IMG/VR virus record: IMGVR_UViG_3300020472_000057
Coordinates: 1-42,771 of that record
DNA length: 42,771 bases
From: a virus
Direction: 5' to 3' (one strand)
Below the pieces are notes generated by a model. It made no database searches. It worked only from the letters and a program-made list of their open reading frames with translations, and was not told where the DNA came from. The position numbers and the translations under genes are program-made. Positions 38,105 to 42,642 of this stretch are shown here, in pieces; positions within the stretch are counted from its first letter, which is position 1, and the number at the start of each line of letters is the position of its first letter.

Positions 38105-38133
38105 AAAAAGAGGTTGGGTGTTATGCAACCTCT
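38105..38133 (-). terminator. Intrinsic terminator spanning a stop codon
   Basis: AGAGGTTG (38126-38133, minus) pairs perfectly with CAACCTCT (38109-38116) around a 9-base loop that contains the stop codon of the 115-aa gene; T5 follows (38105-38109). A textbook intrinsic terminator. Confidence 0.8.
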
Positions 38134-38468
38134 AAGGAATGTGTATCTAATAGTATCATTCCATCAATGAAATCTGTAGTGGTTCCATGATAACTAACGA
38201 ACCATTCAAATTTCTTTTGGAATACTTTGCAACCATACTTAACCTCTTCTAAAATTGCATTTAAGCGAGATTTTGTAGTGTTTGTTTCATAACCACATGA
38301 GTCTAATTTGACTGCGTTGGTGTTATGATCAAGGGTTGCAATTTGATGACCATGTAGATAAACAGAAGAGCAATTTGTTGAATCATTGTAAGAAACAGAG
38401 GTGTTAGATCCTGCCCAGTTGCCCTTATTGGAAAGAGCGAAATTCATTTGCTTTTCAAGTTTTCTCAT
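38121..38468 (-). CDS. Conserved cyanophage protein of unknown function, 115 aa
   Basis: 115 aa. Core pattern: RKLEKQMNFAL, then 'VYLHGHQIATLD', then 'DSCGYETNTTKSRLNAILEEV', then VFQKKFEWFV. I recall the combination 'LHGHxIA ... CGWxTxTTKSRLNAIL ... VFQKxxxW' from small proteins of many T4-like cyanophages, where function is unassigned. The TTKSRLN helix with neighbouring His and Cys could bind nucleic acid, but this is inference. It lies behind a copy of the 34-bp element and ends in a terminator that overlaps its stop, making a self-contained cassette. Confidence 0.8.
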   Translation of the reverse strand: MRKLEKQMNFALSNKGNWAGSNTSVSYNDSTNCSSVYLHGHQIATLDHNTNAVKLDSCGYETNTTKSRLNAILEEVKYGCKVFQKKFEWFVSYHGTTTDFIDGMILLDTHSLEVA

Positions 38469-38488: not shown

Positions 38489-38522
38489 CACTATAGGGAC
38501 ACTTTAGGGGGACCAGTTTCTA
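38489..38522 (-). promoter_or_regulatory. 34-bp intergenic element, copy 1
   Basis: On the plus strand it reads CACTATAGGGACAC followed by TTTAGGGGGACCAGTTTCTA. It starts 4 bp after the stop of the 51-aa gene and ends 20 bp before the ATG of the 115-aa gene. On the minus strand it ends CCCTATAGTG, so a -10-like TATAGT lies at the right distance for a short leader. Confidence 0.7.
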
Positions 38523-38526
38523 TAAC

Positions 38527-38682
38527 TTAGGGCTGGCTCACTATGTTATTAACTAGTGGATTATCTTTATCATCATCATTAACACTCTCTTCACCTAAAT
38601 CAGGTTGCTTATGTGTTATAATGATTTTAGCATCTAACTCGCTATTTGTTGCATTTGGGTTTGCAGTTCCTGTGTAAATCAT
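38527..38682 (-). CDS. Small protein of 51 aa, unknown
   Basis: 51 aa. The N-terminal half (MIYTGTANPNATNSELDAKI; IITHKQPDL) is mixed, and the C-terminal half is acidic and probably disordered (GEESVNDDDKDNPLVNN). Its ATG overlaps the stop of the 57-aa gene upstream (ATGA). Its own stop is followed four bases later by the 34-bp element. Unrecognised. Confidence 0.5.
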   Translation of the reverse strand: MIYTGTANPNATNSELDAKIIITHKQPDLGEESVNDDDKDNPLVNNIVSQP

Positions 38683-38852
38683 AAGTAAGAAGTGAGTGAA
38701 TTTAAGGTGTTATGTGTAAATGAACAATGTGTAATCTCTTGCTGAAAAGTATTACTTACCTTATCAATTAGAGTACTGTAACTATTACAATACCACAAAC
38801 CAATTGCATCCTTTATGTTACAATCAGTGATGAGAATCATTCTTTCTTTCAT
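38679..38852 (-). CDS. Small protein of 57 aa, unknown
   Basis: 57 aa (MKERMILITDCNIKDAIGLW start; HCSFTHNTLNSLTSYL end), with three Cys and a Ser/Thr-rich end. GGAGG lies eight bases before the ATG within the tail of the preceding gene (GGAGGTTAACA), so the SD doubles as that gene's last codons. Coupled at both ends by overlaps. No family recognised. Confidence 0.55.
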   Translation of the reverse strand: MKERMILITDCNIKDAIGLWYCNSYSTLIDKVSNTFQQEITHCSFTHNTLNSLTSYL

Positions 38853-38854
38853 TG

Positions 38855-39112
38855 TTAACCTCCGAGTGAGAATTGTGGTTGCTCAAGTATAATATCTCTG
38901 ACTCTTTCTCTATCTAATGTATCACCTCCACCCCATTCATATGTAACATTAAACCAGCGTCCATTATTACTTTCTGCCTCTTGTATTCTCTTTCGATATA
39001 CTTTAAAGGCAAGCATTATGTCATTCATTGTTAAACCTTTAATAGGATAAAGATCACTATCAGGGTTATAGAAATCATAGACATAATTGTAGAATTCATT
39101 TAAACTGTTCAT
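38855..39112 (-). CDS. Conserved small cyanophage protein, 85 aa
   Basis: 85 aa with 'LTMNDIMLAFKVYRKRIQEAE' (helical) and 'WGGGDTLDRERVRDIILEQ' near the C-terminus. The pattern TMNDIMxAFxxY ... WGGGDxxDREWVRDIIL is one I recall from small T4-like cyanophage proteins of unknown function, so this is a confident gene call. GGAGG nine bases before the ATG. Its Gly-Gly end is encoded by the SD of the next gene. The conserved DREWVRD-like helix could be a protein-protein contact; function not assigned. Confidence 0.8.
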   Translation of the reverse strand: MNSLNEFYNYVYDFYNPDSDLYPIKGLTMNDIMLAFKVYRKRIQEAESNNGRWFNVTYEWGGGDTLDRERVRDIILEQPQFSLGG

Positions 39113-39117
39113 GGTAA

Positions 39118-39339
39118 TTAGCCTCCGATTGTTGTTAGTTTGGTTAGTGAAATAAGGATTAAGAATGATAACATTATTACTACATCATGTGCCTTAGTTC
39201 TTATAAAGAATGGTATGCTTATTATGTTAGCAATTAGATGCATAAATGCCCCTAATGTTGCTGATACATGTAACACAATAAAATAGGCAGTAACTATCAG
39301 GAATGATCCGATAATTCTGCCTGTTGTTAATAGTTTCAT
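39118..39339 (-). CDS. Small integral membrane protein, 73 aa
   Basis: 73 aa with two to three predicted transmembrane helices (about 8-25, 27-46 and 50-66) separated by a basic loop (FIRTKAHD). Overlaps the previous gene by ATGA. The end KLTTIGG is encoded by AAACTAACAACAATCGGAGG, which supplies the SD of the next gene. Similar small membrane proteins occur in cyanomyophages. It may act in the host membrane during takeover; no motif defines its role, and no holin-type signature is evident. Confidence 0.7.
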   Translation of the reverse strand: MKLLTTGRIIGSFLIVTAYFIVLHVSATLGAFMHLIANIISIPFFIRTKAHDVVIMLSFLILISLTKLTTIGG

Positions 39340-39464
39340 TGTGAAAGATCTTCAAAACGTTGATAACAGATTTTCTCTCTATCTTCAGGACTAAGTGTTG
39401 GAAACTCTTCGCAAACTTCATCCCATAGATTCTCAAGAATGATCTCATTGTTTAGTGAACTCAT
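39336..39464 (-). CDS. Small acidic helical protein, 42 aa
   Basis: 42 aa (MSSLNNEIILENLWDEVCEE; FPTLSPEDREKICYQRFEDL). Two predicted helices separated by F-P-T-L-S-P, a helix-turn-helix-like layout but too short and too acidic to call DNA-binding. GGAGA lies eight bases before the ATG. Its stop overlaps the next ATG. The 'EEFPxLxxEDRxKxxxxRFEDLS' pattern resembles other small cyanophage proteins. Confidence 0.6.
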   Translation of the reverse strand: MSSLNNEIILENLWDEVCEEFPTLSPEDREKICYQRFEDLSQ

Positions 39465-39475
39465 TGTTAGTCTCC

Positions 39476-39670
39476 TTAGTAAGATGAACGGAATAGTTGA
39501 TAGATAACATCAAGGGTATCTTTACATTCAGATGTGTAATCGTCATGGTCTTGATACTCACTTAAGGCACGATCTATGAGATCCCATTGATCATCAGTGA
39601 AGAAATCTCTAACAGTGTTAAGATCTTTGTGGGCAATTTGCTTGCCGTTGACTTCAAATTTGAGTGACAT
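39476..39670 (-). CDS. Small acidic protein of 64 aa
   Basis: 64 aa. A beta hairpin start (MSLKFEVNGKQIAHKDLNTV) precedes a helix-rich acidic part (FFTDDQWDLIDRALSEYQDH). It ends YQLFRSSY. It is the first gene after the second copy of the 34-bp element and its long hairpin, so its leader is about 80 bases and structured. Function unknown; the length and composition fit small cyanophage early proteins. Confidence 0.65.
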   Translation of the reverse strand: MSLKFEVNGKQIAHKDLNTVRDFFTDDQWDLIDRALSEYQDHDDYTSECKDTLDVIYQLFRSSY

Positions 39671-39698
39671 AATATAGTGAATTAAAAAACTGTTTGTC

Positions 39699-39749
39699 GG
39701 GACTGTTGAGGAGTCGAACTCTGCTTAGGGCAGCATCCTCAACAGTCCC
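39699..39749 (-). other. 14-bp perfect hairpin with tRNA-like loop, after element copy 2
   Basis: GGGACTGTTGAGGA (39736-39749, minus) pairs perfectly with TCCTCAACAGTCCC (39699-39712). The 23-base loop contains CTGC-CCTAA-GCAG and GAGTTCGACTC, the latter like a tRNA T-arm. It begins 2 bp from the 34-bp element, whose GTCCC could instead pair with the hairpin's GGGAC. No T-run follows, so it is not an intrinsic terminator. Confidence 0.7.
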
Positions 39750-39751
39750 TT

Positions 39752-39785
39752 CACTATAGGGACACTTTAGGGGGACCAGTTACTA
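39752..39785 (-). promoter_or_regulatory. 34-bp intergenic element, copy 2
   Basis: Identical to copy 1 except for one base (GTTACTA for GTTTCTA, plus strand). It begins 16 bp after the stop of the 46-aa gene and is followed at once by the 14-bp hairpin. It precedes a six-gene run rather than a single gene. Confidence 0.7.
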
Positions 39786-39801
39786 TAACCTAGCAGGCTA
39801 A

Positions 39802-39942
39802 TTAAAACTTAGCATTAACACTAATTACCCTTGCATTTGGATTACGTGCTAATGCAACTTCTCTTGCTTCTTGATAATTAACAGCATGAACTTCTTCAGT
39901 AAAAACTTGACCTCCAACATACAATTTGACTTCAATTAACAT
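39802..39942 (-). CDS. Small beta-rich protein, 46 aa
   Basis: 46 aa (MLIEVKLYVGGQVFTEEVHA; VNYQEAREVALARNPNARVI). Strand-strand-helix-strand pattern, as in very small ferredoxin-like folds. GGAGG lies seven bases before the ATG. The ATG overlaps the preceding stop by one base (TAATG). The 'A-x-x-x-A-L-A-R-N-P-x-A-x-V' helix-strand motif resembles small phage proteins with no assigned role. Confidence 0.65.
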   Translation of the reverse strand: MLIEVKLYVGGQVFTEEVHAVNYQEAREVALARNPNARVISVNAKF

Positions 39943-40115
39943 TAGTTTGCCTCCGAAAGATTCCAGTTTTGTTTGTTAATGGACTTGCCACAATATTGGC
40001 AGGTTAATGCACTCCAACTAAAGTGAAATACAGTAGCAGGTGCAGTACAATAGGGACAAACTATTGCTTTCCCATTATTACCTGCCCTTGTGCGATTGTT
40101 GACCTTAGTTATCAT
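39942..40115 (-). CDS. Zinc-ribbon protein, 57 aa
   Basis: 57 aa. Two CxxC knuckles, CPYC (about 20-23) and CQYC (about 39-42), separated by 'TVFHFSWSALT', with a basic N-terminus (MITKVNNRTRAGNNGKAIV). The pattern 'KV-NNKxRxGxxGKxIVCPxC ... HFSWSALTCQxC' recalls a zinc-ribbon protein widespread in T4-like cyanophages. Zinc ribbons of this size usually bind nucleic acid or a polymerase subunit; a transcription role is plausible but unproven. It starts at the base before the upstream stop and ends overlapping the next start. Confidence 0.8.
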   Translation of the reverse strand: MITKVNNRTRAGNNGKAIVCPYCTAPATVFHFSWSALTCQYCGKSINKQNWNLSEAN

Positions 40116-40376
40116 TTAGTCCTCCCATTCTGGTTCAGGTTGTTTACTCTGAGCAGCTTCAACTTTAGAATAGAAGTTATCAACTGCTCCTTCTAATGTT
40201 TCAAAGATACTATCAACATCTTTCTGAAATTGATCCTCTTCATTGTATTCATCATTACCTTGCATTGCACCTTCTAAAATGTAAAGAATAGTTGCAATTT
40301 GTCCCTCAGTTAGTGTTACATCATAAGGACGATTAAGATCTTCTGCTATACTTGGGTTGAATGATTGTTTAGTCAT
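40116..40376 (-). CDS. Small acidic protein, 86 aa
   Basis: 86 aa, strongly acidic, mostly helical (YDVTLTEGQIATILYILEGA; FQKDVDSIFETLEGAVDNFY), ending in a Pro/Glu/Trp tail (QPEPEWED). AGGAGG lies upstream of the ATG (spacing about 11). Acidic helical early proteins can mimic DNA or bind host factors, but nothing in the sequence proves this. The stop abuts the next ATG. Confidence 0.65.
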   Translation of the reverse strand: MTKQSFNPSIAEDLNRPYDVTLTEGQIATILYILEGAMQGNDEYNEEDQFQKDVDSIFETLEGAVDNFYSKVEAAQSKQPEPEWED

Positions 40377-40380
40377 TGTG

Positions 40381-40581
40381 TTAATTAACCTCCTGAATTG
40401 TGTCCCATACTTTAATATAGCATGATAACCAATCTTCTTGCTCCGATGTTAATTTCTCATAACAATCCATGTCTTGATGATTGATACTTTCATGGAGCAA
40501 TTCATCAGCAGAGATATGTTCTAGGTCATGTAATGTGCAGTAATCTCTTAACACATTAGAAAGAAAATCAATTTTGTTCAT
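40381..40581 (-). CDS. Small acidic protein, 66 aa
   Basis: 66 aa. Helical, acidic, with 'RDYCTLHDLEHISADELLHE' followed by 'LTSEQEDWLSCYIKVWDTIQ'. The LTxEQxDWLSxxIxxW segment resembles a recurrent pattern in small cyanophage proteins. GGAGG precedes the ATG by ten bases (GGAGGCAAACTAACA). Part of the five-gene run 40993-39802. Function unknown. Confidence 0.65.
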   Translation of the reverse strand: MNKIDFLSNVLRDYCTLHDLEHISADELLHESINHQDMDCYEKLTSEQEDWLSCYIKVWDTIQEVN

Positions 40582-40600
40582 TGTTAGTTTGCCTCCTTAA

Positions 40601-40993
40601 TTAGCGTAAGTAAAGATAACCGCCAGCCCAATCTGTAAAGTTTGGGTTATGCAATCTTTGTCTATCTGATATAATCCTTAGATCATATCTAACAATCTTT
40701 GCAGGTGATTTCCATGATGCAGGTTTATAAACTTCACCTGTTTTCTTATCAATGAAAGCATGAACACCTTGACTCCATTCTTTACCATTAGAGTCAATAT
40801 CTGTGCCAACTATCTTAATATATTTCCTACCAAATTCCATCTTAAATGTTTTATCACTAGATGAATTAGGATAGGATTGTTGATAGTTTTCCTCAAGAGT
40901 TCTGCATAATTGCCACACCCACTTTTCAATCTTTTGATCTAAAGTGAGTTTTTCTTCTGGAAATACTGCGATGGTTGGGATTGCTGTTGTCAT
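40601..40993 (-). CDS. Conserved cyanophage protein, 130 aa
   Basis: 130 aa. N-terminal helix (DQKIEKWVWQLCRTLEENYQ), then a beta sheet with 'YIKIVGTDIDSNGKEWSQGVHAFID', then 'KKTGEVYKPASWKSPAKIVRYDLR', ending 'DWAGGYLYLR'. The 'VHAFVDKKTGDVYKPASWKxPAKxVRYxL ... DWAGGYLY' core is familiar from many T4-like cyanophages, where it is uncharacterised. The fold looks small alpha/beta, non-enzymatic. First gene after the terminator at 41019-41041, so it needs its own promoter, which I could not find in the 25-bp gap. Confidence 0.8.
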   Translation of the reverse strand: MTTAIPTIAVFPEEKLTLDQKIEKWVWQLCRTLEENYQQSYPNSSSDKTFKMEFGRKYIKIVGTDIDSNGKEWSQGVHAFIDKKTGEVYKPASWKSPAKIVRYDLRIISDRQRLHNPNFTDWAGGYLYLR

Positions 40994-41018
40994 AATGAAT
41001 TAGGGGTGAATTGTTAAT

Positions 41019-41041
41019 AAAAAGGACAGTAATTACTGTCC
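41019..41041 (-). terminator. Intrinsic terminator, palindrome over a stop codon
   Basis: An 18-bp perfect palindrome (41024-41041: GGACAG, TAATTA, CTGTCC) followed on the minus strand by T5. It overlaps the last codons and stop of the 53-aa gene. The G+C-rich arms with a 6-base loop and T-run make a strong intrinsic terminator. Confidence 0.8.
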
Positions 41042-41194
41042 GTTGGTGTATGAACCCATCACACATTCTCCGTAACGAACTTCGGCATAACCGTATTCTT
41101 CAGAGAGATCTAAACATAAACCCCAACACTCATCAAGGTTAACAAATGAGGAGTTCTCATAAGGTGCGGATGGACAATGAACTGAATATCTCAT
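41033..41194 (-). CDS. Small Cys-containing protein, 53 aa
   Basis: 53 aa (MRYSVHCPSAPYENSSFVNL; DECWGLCLDLSEEYGYAEVR; YGECVMGSYTNGQ). Four Cys (positions 7, 23, 27 and 44) could bind a metal, but spacing fits no zinc motif I know. A helix with strand-forming ends; 'Y-A-E-V-R-Y-G' precedes the C-terminus. Single-gene cassette: element copy 3 lies 20 bp upstream of the ATG, and the terminator overlaps its stop. Confidence 0.6.
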   Translation of the reverse strand: MRYSVHCPSAPYENSSFVNLDECWGLCLDLSEEYGYAEVRYGECVMGSYTNGQ

Positions 41195-41214
41195 TTTATT
41201 TTAAATCGTGATTA

Positions 41215-41248
41215 CACTATAGGGACACTTTAGGGGGACCAGTTTCTA
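41215..41248 (-). promoter_or_regulatory. 34-bp intergenic element, copy 3
   Basis: Identical to copy 1 over the whole 34 bp. Its first bases on the minus strand (TAG) are the stop codon of the 299-aa gene, so the element begins exactly at the gene's end. The next ATG is 20 bp beyond. Confidence 0.75.
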
Positions 41249-42145
41249 ATACCTAGCACGATTAAAGTTATGATAAGAAAATGTTCTTCTATCTACTATC
41301 TTAAATGTACCAAACTTATTAGACATTACATAACCTTCATGGTCAACATTACGTCCCTCTATTGTACATTCTAAATCATCATCTGGATGGAGATAGCAAA
41401 ACATATCCATCTTAATTGTCTCTACTAATTTCCACAAACGTAACACATTTATGTCGATAGAGTTATAGTGGGCCAGTGAATCTAAAGTAAGATCATCAAC
41501 TTCTAATCCTTCACGAATACAAGTATTAATTTGCTTTTTGAGTTTATTAACTATACTTTGCTCAGGAAATTCGCACATTGTTGCAATTTGTTTCGCAAAA
41601 TTGCATATGTCTTGAATATCATCTAAGTGAGGTGATATTCTTACTTTAGGTTGAATGAATACAACATCAAGTGTATCATTTAACCGAGATTGTATAGGTT
41701 GAGATACTGCATCCCTCAAATCTTTAGCTGCAAAGTATTCAGTATGAGGTGCAATTATAATCTCAGTATCAATAATCTCAGGAAACTTATACGTTATGGT
41801 ATTAGCGCAGTAAGTAGAATCGCCACCAAAACCGATGAAATCACCTTGGTAGATGTTATCAGTACGAGGTAAGTAATCAAGGCAATGATGAAGAATCTCT
41901 GCCACTTTTCCCTGATGATTGTTATCAATTTGCTGATGGGATTCGTTGATCTTAATTTTGATTTTGTTGAAGACACTTTTAGTTCCTACGAAGAAATTAC
42001 CAGTTGAAGGATTACGTCCCCAAACTATTGCTGGAGAACCATCAATTTTGACTGATACATTACCATCTGAAGTGAACCAATTAAGCACACTTAAATCACC
42101 ATTAAGGACTGAATCTTCAGGATGTTCGAGATGCAAATTTTTCAT
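41246..42145 (-). CDS. Putative nucleotidyltransferase/ligase-like protein, 299 aa
   Basis: 299 aa. K33-x-D-G36 in NVSVKIDGSPAIVWGRNP looks like motif I of the DNA/RNA ligase and capping-enzyme superfamily. 'NIYQGDFIGFGG' (~97-108) looks like motif III with Asp for Glu. 'DHEGYVMSNKFGTFKIVD' (~268-285) looks like motifs IV (EGYV) and V (FKIV). Order and spacing fit. I associate the family with a cyanophage protein of unknown function (possibly DUF6267; not verified). If active it would bind a nucleotide covalently through Lys33; joining or repairing RNA or DNA is an inference. The last Lys of motif V (KxK) is missing, so activity may be lost or altered. The stop is inside element copy 3. Confidence 0.6.
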   Translation of the reverse strand: MKNLHLEHPEDSVLNGDLSVLNWFTSDGNVSVKIDGSPAIVWGRNPSTGNFFVGTKSVFNKIKIKINESHQQIDNNHQGKVAEILHHCLDYLPRTDNIYQGDFIGFGGDSTYCANTITYKFPEIIDTEIIIAPHTEYFAAKDLRDAVSQPIQSRLNDTLDVVFIQPKVRISPHLDDIQDICNFAKQIATMCEFPEQSIVNKLKKQINTCIREGLEVDDLTLDSLAHYNSIDINVLRLWKLVETIKMDMFCYLHPDDDLECTIEGRNVDHEGYVMSNKFGTFKIVDRRTFSYHNFNRARY

Positions 42146-42174
42146 AATAAATCAATCAATGTGTATAATAGCAT

Positions 42175-42198
42175 AAAAAATCCCCATGAAAGGGGATT
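42175..42198 (-). terminator. Intrinsic terminator after the 95-aa gene
   Basis: AATCCCC (42192-42198, minus) pairs perfectly with GGGGATT around TTTCAT; T-run at 42175-42180. It ends the transcript of the 95-aa gene and lies 30 bp ahead of the ligase-like gene. Confidence 0.85.
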
Positions 42199-42207
42199 AA
42201 TGTGCAG

Positions 42208-42495
42208 TTATTTAATTGCCACTCTTTCAGGTACATTAAGACTTAAATTCTGTAGAATGTTTACTACAAATGCCTCAAGATAGATGAGTGGAAGAATAAC
42301 AAAGTCAAGTCCTCTTAATTCAGTGAATTTAGGATTTGCTTTAGTTTCTGTTACTTCGGGCATAACTTTTGCAGAACGAGTAACTTTATTTACTCTTTTT
42401 GCTGGAGTTGTAGACACTTTTGTAACAGATGTTGGCGACTTTTTAATAGTTGCGGTTGCAGATTTGGTTGCTGATGAACGTCTGCGAGTTGCCAT
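42208..42495 (-). CDS. Basic Ser/Thr/Lys-rich tail protein with hydrophobic C-terminus, 95 aa
   Basis: 95 aa from MATRRRSSATKSATATIKKS. An earlier in-frame ATG (to 42552) would lie inside the structured element and is rejected. Residues 1-50 are disordered and strongly basic, histone-tail-like (Lys/Arg/Ser/Thr/Pro). Residues 58-95 contain a conserved-looking 'LDFVILPLIYLEAFVVNILQ', possibly a membrane-associated helix. Basic low-complexity plus hydrophobic helix could link nucleic acid to the membrane, but no family is recognised. It forms a cassette with element copy 4 upstream and a terminator downstream. Confidence 0.6.
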   Translation of the reverse strand: MATRRRSSATKSATATIKKSPTSVTKVSTTPAKRVNKVTRSAKVMPEVTETKANPKFTELRGLDFVILPLIYLEAFVVNILQNLSLNVPERVAIK

Positions 42496-42520
42496 ATTTG
42501 TTAAAAAGTAAAGTGAAAAG

Positions 42521-42611
42521 GTGAGGGACTCAAATCCCAGATGTCTGACCATATCTTAGTAGGATAACCCCACAAATGGTCTCAGGGATGGGCATTTGAC
42601 TTGACCCTCAC
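42521..42611 (-). other. Structured RNA-like element after element copy 4
   Basis: Nested pairings on the minus strand: GTGAGGG with CCCTCAC (42605-42611 and 42521-42527); TCAAAT-G-CCC with GGGATTTGA; GACCAT with ATGGTC (42576-42581 and 42547-42552); GTGGG with CCTAC (42569-42573 and 42559-42563, one G-T). The outer stem starts in the last bases of the 34-bp element. The 7-bp outer stem resembles a tRNA acceptor, but the T-arm is not canonical. Confidence 0.6.
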
Positions 42612-42642
42612 TATAAGGACACTTTAGGGGGACCAGTTTCTA
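42609..42642 (-). promoter_or_regulatory. 34-bp intergenic element, copy 4
   Basis: One base differs from copy 1 (CACTATAAGGAC for CACTATAGGGAC, plus strand). It begins directly after the TGA of the 36-aa gene. It leads into the structured element and then the 95-aa gene. Confidence 0.75.

Follow-up and report, generated by a model that had tools for sequence, protein, structure and literature searches.

Arbiol in 2010 and Comeau in 2014 reportedly dealt with the promoter-early stem-loop (PeSL) cassettes of T4-type phages. Such a cassette joins a terminator stem-loop to a sigma-70 early promoter (PMC4503421). Cyanomyoviruses lack alt, modA, modB, motA, and asiA, and how early and middle genes are controlled in T4-like cyanophages without Alt, MotA, and AsiA is an acknowledged open question (PMC2984593). 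Here, we describe a short repeated element from a 42,771-nucleotide (nt) stretch of viral DNA, one whole record of the IMG/VR database (IMGVR_UViG_3300020472_000057; G000) that is hereafter called the window. In ocean viruses of blue-green bacteria, the element appears to be a type of gene switch that has not been described before; a literature search with its core strings returned no prior description, the primary PeSL and Syn9 transcriptome papers being beyond its reach and an earlier mention possible. From comparative sequence analysis, we consider it probable that the copies are phage-specific promoters, served by the host polymerase together with a specificity factor that is carried in the virion.

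Like a PeSL, the element is a short repeated regulatory unit that lies between the accessory genes of hyperplastic regions, with many copies per genome. The initial annotation had proposed a cyanophage counterpart of the PeSL, and the PeSL-like job between accessory genes stands; membership of that class does not, since the element contains neither a terminator stem-loop (copies 2 and 4 are followed by hairpins, but these are downstream of the element and differ in sequence) nor a sigma-70 early promoter (TATAAT with or without TTGACA), and has instead a phage-specific code and a co-varying protein. Relatives have genuine cassettes of terminator plus TATAAT at the corresponding gene junction, and such cassettes are also found elsewhere in the window.

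Judged by a minus-strand gene order that agrees with those of S-SM2, SynMITS9220M01, and Bellamy, the window is a piece of a T4-like cyanophage genome: open reading frames (ORFs) matching a gp7-like giant, gp6, and gp25 in size and order are followed by small accessory genes, including one encoding DUF6267. The four near-identical copies of the element that had been noticed there, at 38489..38522, 39752..39785, 41215..41248, and 42609..42642, are borne out as non-random and co-oriented on the gene-sense (minus) strand. A 30-mer (CACTATAGGGACACTTTAGGGGGACCAGTT) is exact in copies 1–3 and has one mismatch in copy 4, which carries the variant TTATAGTG, while dinucleotide shuffles gave 0 matches to it; in copy 1, AACTGGTCCCCCTAAAGTGTCCCTATAGT spans 38490-38518. 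The reported placement at stop codons also holds, with minus-strand gaps from the stop to AACTGG of 8, 20, 1, and 4 nt for copies 1–4, respectively. Behind copies 1 and 3, the start codons of a gene of 115 amino acids (aa; 38121-38468, minus strand) and of a 53-aa ORF both lie 23 nt past the G of TATAG; copy 3 directly follows the stop of the DUF6267 gene. A hairpin RNA and a gene of 64 aa come after copy 2; copy 4 precedes a structured RNA and a gene of 114 aa. A second record from the same sample (IMGVR_UViG_3300020472_000677, here L005) repeats the window's final 77 bp without a mismatch and extends it, and the two are likely one genome on the strength of this overlap. L005 contributes three more copies (stop gaps of 1, 1, and 7 nt), bringing the total for this phage to at least seven within 9 kb.

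On the minus strand, the element of 29–33 nt reads as a barcode of ~8 nt plus C (AACTGGTCC) followed by a core (TAAAGTGTCCYTATAGTR); the 5' part is specific to each contig, and the 3' part is conserved widely. The search of cyanophage collections that the initial annotation had called for was run on IMG/VR with the 3' part only (TAAAGTGTCCYTATAGT), and found this core in at least 119 stretches of marine contigs, with up to 7 copies in 10 kb among the matches listed. In the aligned elements, the 3' part is common to all and the ~8 nt preceding it are uniform per contig and unlike between contigs; examples are GGGGGG(A/T)C, ACTGAAGC, GTTACTCAC, GTTAGT(A/T)AC, ACTGAGCC, and CTCTGGGGC, among others. 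For sites picked by the core only, barcode mismatch was 0.10 within contigs versus 0.62 between them, whereas the flanks differed almost as much within as between contigs (0.61/0.68 upstream and 0.67/0.70 further downstream). Nearly all core-selected sites (474/476) lie on the majority strand of their own contig. The conserved part, C-NNN-[TC]AAAGTGTCC[CT][TA][AG]TAGT[AG]T[AG]A, was derived from sites chosen by barcode and is therefore not circular; its 3' end can also be rendered as TATAGTRTRA or WRTAGTRTRA. An ORF stop lies ≤36 nt upstream at 601 of the 852 barcode-selected sites (median gap 4 nt), a positional bias as opposed to an unbiased occurrence inside coding regions.

Isolates carry the element in the same way. 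The complete 190-kb genome of SynMITS9220M01 has 12 copies, all between 36.3 and 50.0 kb on one strand and 0 on the other, with one extra weak match at 14.9 kb that is at chance level. There are 12 copies in S-SM2 (40-70 kb, a 30-kb stretch examined), 9 in AG-345-O18, and 13 of a diverged form (GTTAGTTACCTC-TAAATTGANNTATTAATG) in P-TIM68. In the three isolates S-SM2 (host Synechococcus WH8017), SynMITS9220M01 (host MIT S9220), and P-TIM68 (host Prochlorococcus MIT9515), the copies share one strand and a single accessory region upstream of gp25/gp6.

A candidate for the protein that would read the barcode was sought among the S-SM2 singletons of the 2010 T4-GC clustering, which were compared with SynMITS9220M01, element-bearing contigs, and the accessory regions of six element-free phages. 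Homologues of SSM2_065 (193 aa) occur in SynMITS9220M01 and at 49 element loci; the six element-free regions contain none. Its family, which includes SynMITS9220M01_053 and AIR93418 of P-TIM68, is confined among phage records to S-SM2, AG-345-O18, P-TIM68, SynMITS9220M01, and AG-345-E15, with a half-match in three S-B05-like phages. The gene sits within the element-bearing accessory region; in the phage of the window, it lies at L005:2392-2943 (minus strand), where the tail KPASAYDPKL accompanies the barcode AACTGGTCC.

All gene families represented at 12 or more loci were then screened by comparing their N-terminal, middle, and C-terminal 25 residues with the barcode. For the candidate family (n=46), the correlation with the barcode was 0.58 at the C-terminus and 0.07 at the N-terminus; other families adjoining the element equally often gave 0.00-0.10 and one gave 0.25, and among screened genes with more than 12 loci none came near the C-terminal value of the candidate. 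DUF6267, a helicase, and other conserved neighbours were rejected as the factor, being without correlation to the barcode. A further search yielded 80 loci, of which 51 were previously unused and served as a test set (several on contigs already seen, with identical proteins dropped). There, the barcode was predicted from the nearest tail with 1.67 mismatches out of 9, compared with 4.27 from the nearest protein body and 5.1 by chance, and the prediction was off by no more than 2 of 9 nt at 73% of these loci by tail versus 27% by body.

In the combined set (n=96), the C-terminal ~40 residues correlated with the barcode at 0.584 (Spearman, Mantel) and at 0.587 as a partial correlation given the body (0/300 permutations), while the body itself correlated at 0.012. 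The correlation was 0.565 when barcodes were taken only from sites >1.5 kb away and 0.752 at loci without an element adjoining the gene (0/500 permutations each), although all these permutation counts overstate the certainty because the loci are not phylogenetically independent and the contigs are fragments and partly related. Because both the distance control and the non-adjoining control hold, physical linkage is not the cause of the covariation. Natural barcodes include GGGGGGTC, AACTGGTCC, and GTTAGTTAC. In tail classes that were drawn after inspection of the data, SEKELK/ESELK goes mostly with GGGG-type barcodes and PxSxY with ACTG/TGG-type barcodes, and TGxxPDxKG..GRVxxRM and GLAHK occur only with GTTA/AGCTCAC-type barcodes. 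Contig L023 combines a GGGG-type body and a GTTAGT-type tail with the barcodes GTTAGTAAC, and P-TIM68, found via its protein body, has both a GTTAGT-type tail and a GTTAGT barcode. The predicted specificity region of the candidate, its C-terminal tail, co-varies with the site, as that of a sequence-specific transcription factor would.

The candidate protein is small, basic, and largely without a predicted fold, except for the C-terminal ~40-45 residues, which are predicted to be helical (predicted local distance difference test score about 90 in one model). The family begins with MK[TS]FxxFxxEA(YD), consensus MKTFQQFIxEAYD, which resembles the capsid-targeting sequence of T4 internal proteins; ipII and ipIII begin with MKTYQEFIAEA in the T4 record, as against MKSFQQFIAEAYD here. 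In T4, proteins that bear the capsid-targeting N-terminal sequence are taken up into the head (PMC10229621, PMC3012670), and the known internal proteins include anti-restriction proteins (PMC3012670). From the likeness to IPII/IPIII, and as for the injected Alt, we predict that the candidate protein is carried in the virion and delivered with it. We know of no internal protein that binds a phage-specific promoter code.

The position of the RNA 5' end can be narrowed down from what follows the element. The DUF6267 gene (T4-GC71; 299 aa, 41246..42145 on the minus strand in the window) is common to 465 phage records, and its start codon directly abuts the box (TAGT|ATG) in 43/58 genes of the fetched element-bearing contigs, the N-terminus MKN-H-EHPED being kept whether or not a phage has the element. 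In the window, this gene uses a PeSL-like sigma-70 cassette instead of the element, namely a terminator hairpin (AATCCCC...GGGGATTTTTT) followed by TATTAT at 42160..42200 (minus strand), and in element-free relatives the corresponding junction often carries a terminator or a TATAAT-like box, e.g., in P-SSM2 and AG-345-F15 (CTATAATAAGAGT|ATG). At sites without a close ORF, a downstream RNA helix begins in or just past TATAG with varied paired sequences, such as GTGTGAGGG/CCCTCACAC, GTGAAGGG/CCCTTCAC, and GTGTAAGGA/TCCTTACAT; counting the T of TAAAG as index 0, the helix starts at index 14-17 in 31/55 RNA-type sites versus 29/162 shuffled controls. Since both start codons and helices begin there, the RNA 5' end is placed at or before TATAG (index ~12-15 or upstream).

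Two such RNAs lie in the window. The hairpin GGGACTGTTGAGGA...TCCTCAACAGTCCC at 39699..39749 (minus strand; -30.1 kcal/mol, z = -6.5), a candidate non-coding RNA or leader, begins 2 nt past TATAGTG of copy 2; Rfam gave no family for a set of related loci to which L005, though not the window, belonged. The long imperfect hairpin at 42521..42611 (minus strand; -32.6 kcal/mol) has a terminal helix, GTGAGGG/CCCTCAC, that starts at the G of TATAG in copy 4; its z of about -1.8 is weak by itself, and the same helix start point is found in RNAs of other phages. No tRNA genes were found behind copies 2 and 4 by ARAGORN. Structured RNAs of ~50-240 nt and several families stand directly behind the element at L005:4630-4855, L012:9337-9530, L042, L045, L056, L058, and L011 and at 42521-42611 of the window; one recurring type is GTGAGAAACAGTTACxGG..CCxGTAATGTTTCTCCCAC, and the 15 related loci with a structured RNA behind the element matched no Rfam families.

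In the mechanism that we propose, each copy would act as a minus-strand promoter for the gene or small RNA immediately behind it. The protein would be packaged and enter the cell along with the DNA, its C-terminal helical region would bind the barcode, and the bound protein would recruit the host RNA polymerase; two complete genomes have no annotated phage RNA polymerase. We infer a layout in which the barcode lies just upstream of a -10 box [TC]AAA-N-T (index 0-5) and transcription begins within TATAG, the likely first base being the purine in [TA][AG]TAG (index 12). Leaders of mRNAs would then be only ~2-30 nt long, small RNAs would have the closing helix at their own 5' end, and the protein would fill the role of T4 MotA/AsiA and Alt. 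The suggestion of a separate minus-strand promoter class that probably needs a phage factor is supported by the sequence comparisons, as is the remark that the -35-like region differs from TTGACA, this region being the variable barcode.

Several points weigh against this proposal, besides the relatedness of the loci and the tail classes chosen with the data in view. A small family (n=12 loci, median 97 aa) reached 0.57 between C-terminus and barcode; its members include the frame at L018:6374 (95 aa) and an unannotated 69-aa one at about 40017 in SynMITS9220M01. The pairing of tail and barcode is broken on contigs L033 and L022/L204/L206, the latter partly one contig or near relatives. S-B05 (L144, 138660-170923) has a homologue with a divergent tail, and no element was recognised across the 32 kb examined; a diverged form elsewhere may serve it. 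Whole-protein models are poor, with predicted template modelling scores of 0.24-0.26 and only the last ~40 residues well predicted, and the protein had no significant match in Pfam, PHROG, or Foldseek and no PDB sequence at E≤1. In S-SM2, C stands at index 5, read as the -7 T of the -10 box, in about half of the sites, a poor fit.

Alternatively, the element could act at the RNA level: transcripts would read through from upstream promoters and be cut at TATA|G, which would release each gene and small RNA, and the basic protein would bind the RNA barcode as a processing or antitermination factor, much as N of phage lambda does with boxB. Helices and start codons that begin directly after TATA, copies lying among tightly packed same-strand genes, and a small, basic, mostly disordered protein are all in keeping with this, but relatives carry a terminator plus TATAAT promoters in the corresponding slot, for which a cutting site would be no substitute, and a capsid-targeting N-terminus better suits a protein that meets incoming DNA. 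A hairpin within the element was also rejected, with no consistent structure across barcode types and with copies 1 and 3 of the window, folded alone, no better than chance. We regard such an RNA-level role as unlikely. A DNA landmark, at which the packaged protein would organise or protect the genome or recombine cassettes, would likewise agree with the capsid-targeting N-terminus and with the clustering of sites in one hypervariable region, which would be expected of recombination cassettes; the exact offset to start codons and RNA helices, the fixed orientation, and the promoters found in its place in relatives make it distinctly improbable.

The initial annotation had placed the -10 at TATAGT and the RNA start 5-9 nt later, which corresponds to a plain host sigma-70 promoter. 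TATAGT is indeed -10-like and a conserved A at index 23 could be the start, but such transcripts would lack the start codon of DUF6267 and of many other genes and would cut into the RNA helices, the A at -11 is replaced by G in 33% of 283 sites, and the barcode is left unexplained; this version was not supported and is very improbable. Least credible of all is that the phage encodes its own single-subunit (T7-like) RNA polymerase and that the element is its promoter, the G being +1. The TATA|G placement, the conserved first transcribed bases, and the similarity of the core AGTGTCCCTATAG to the SP6 promoter (GGTGACACTATAG) speak for it, while TATA is often AGTA or TGTA, the two complete genomes have no RNA polymerase annotated, and PF00940 was unmatched in SynMITS9220M01 and ten other records in a search whose positive control was also silent. 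A plus-strand T7 promoter (CACTATAGGGA) was rejected as a product of the palindrome CTATAG; the sequence before CACTATA varies among copies, and no genes lie that way.

Promoters read by a virion-borne factor would share the logic of T4 MotA/AsiA middle promoters, in which a phage protein binds a short box in place of the -35 region. However, the consensus has no MotA box near -30, the box here differs between phages, and the candidate, unmatched among PDB sequences at that threshold, has a capsid-targeting-like N-terminus. The T4 late promoter TATAAATA (NATAAATA in cyanophages, PMC2984593) is not matched by the element consensus. As in lambdoid N/nut, T7/T3/SP6 polymerase/promoter pairs, and repressor/operator immunity groups, site and protein diverge jointly and have conserved and variable parts, but here the protein is another one, the site layout differs, the copies are many and dispersed, and the factor is likely in the particle.

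More tentatively, the small virion-borne transcription factor may read a password that is repeated before the accessory genes of its own genome, with password and key changing together, sometimes by a swap of the C-terminal domain (L023). If so, a phage would not activate the genes of a co-infecting one, and a gene acquired from a different phage would stay silent until its password was rewritten; this would be an unusual virion-carried, phage-specific transcription key that bears on co-infection and gene exchange in abundant marine viruses. With a concrete site, a concrete candidate protein, and a code by which the sequence of one predicts that of the other in dozens of phages, the question of cyanophage gene control becomes directly testable in three cultured phages.

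The idea that the element is general to T4-like cyanophages was rejected, as the regions of Bellamy, S-SRM01, S-SKS1, P-SSM2, ACG-2014f, and AG-345-F15 carry other repeated cassettes or none. In the corresponding region, ACG-2014f (L132) has its own intergenic cassettes, GCTATACTATATTCATACC x26 with TGTGACAGTTGRGGAAGTGGCACA x17, as do S-SKS1 (L130; ACCTCAAAATCGTGTATTGTAG x6 and TAAGTAACACTTACTCA x8) and Bellamy (L128; TGTATATTAAAAGAGTCA x5), and AG-345-F15 (L133) has a terminator plus TATAATAA x7. In the DUF6267/T4-GC71 protein of the window, for which Pfam gives DUF6267 only, KIDGSPAIVWG, GYVMS, and KIVDR resemble by eye the motifs of ATP-dependent RNA/DNA ligases.

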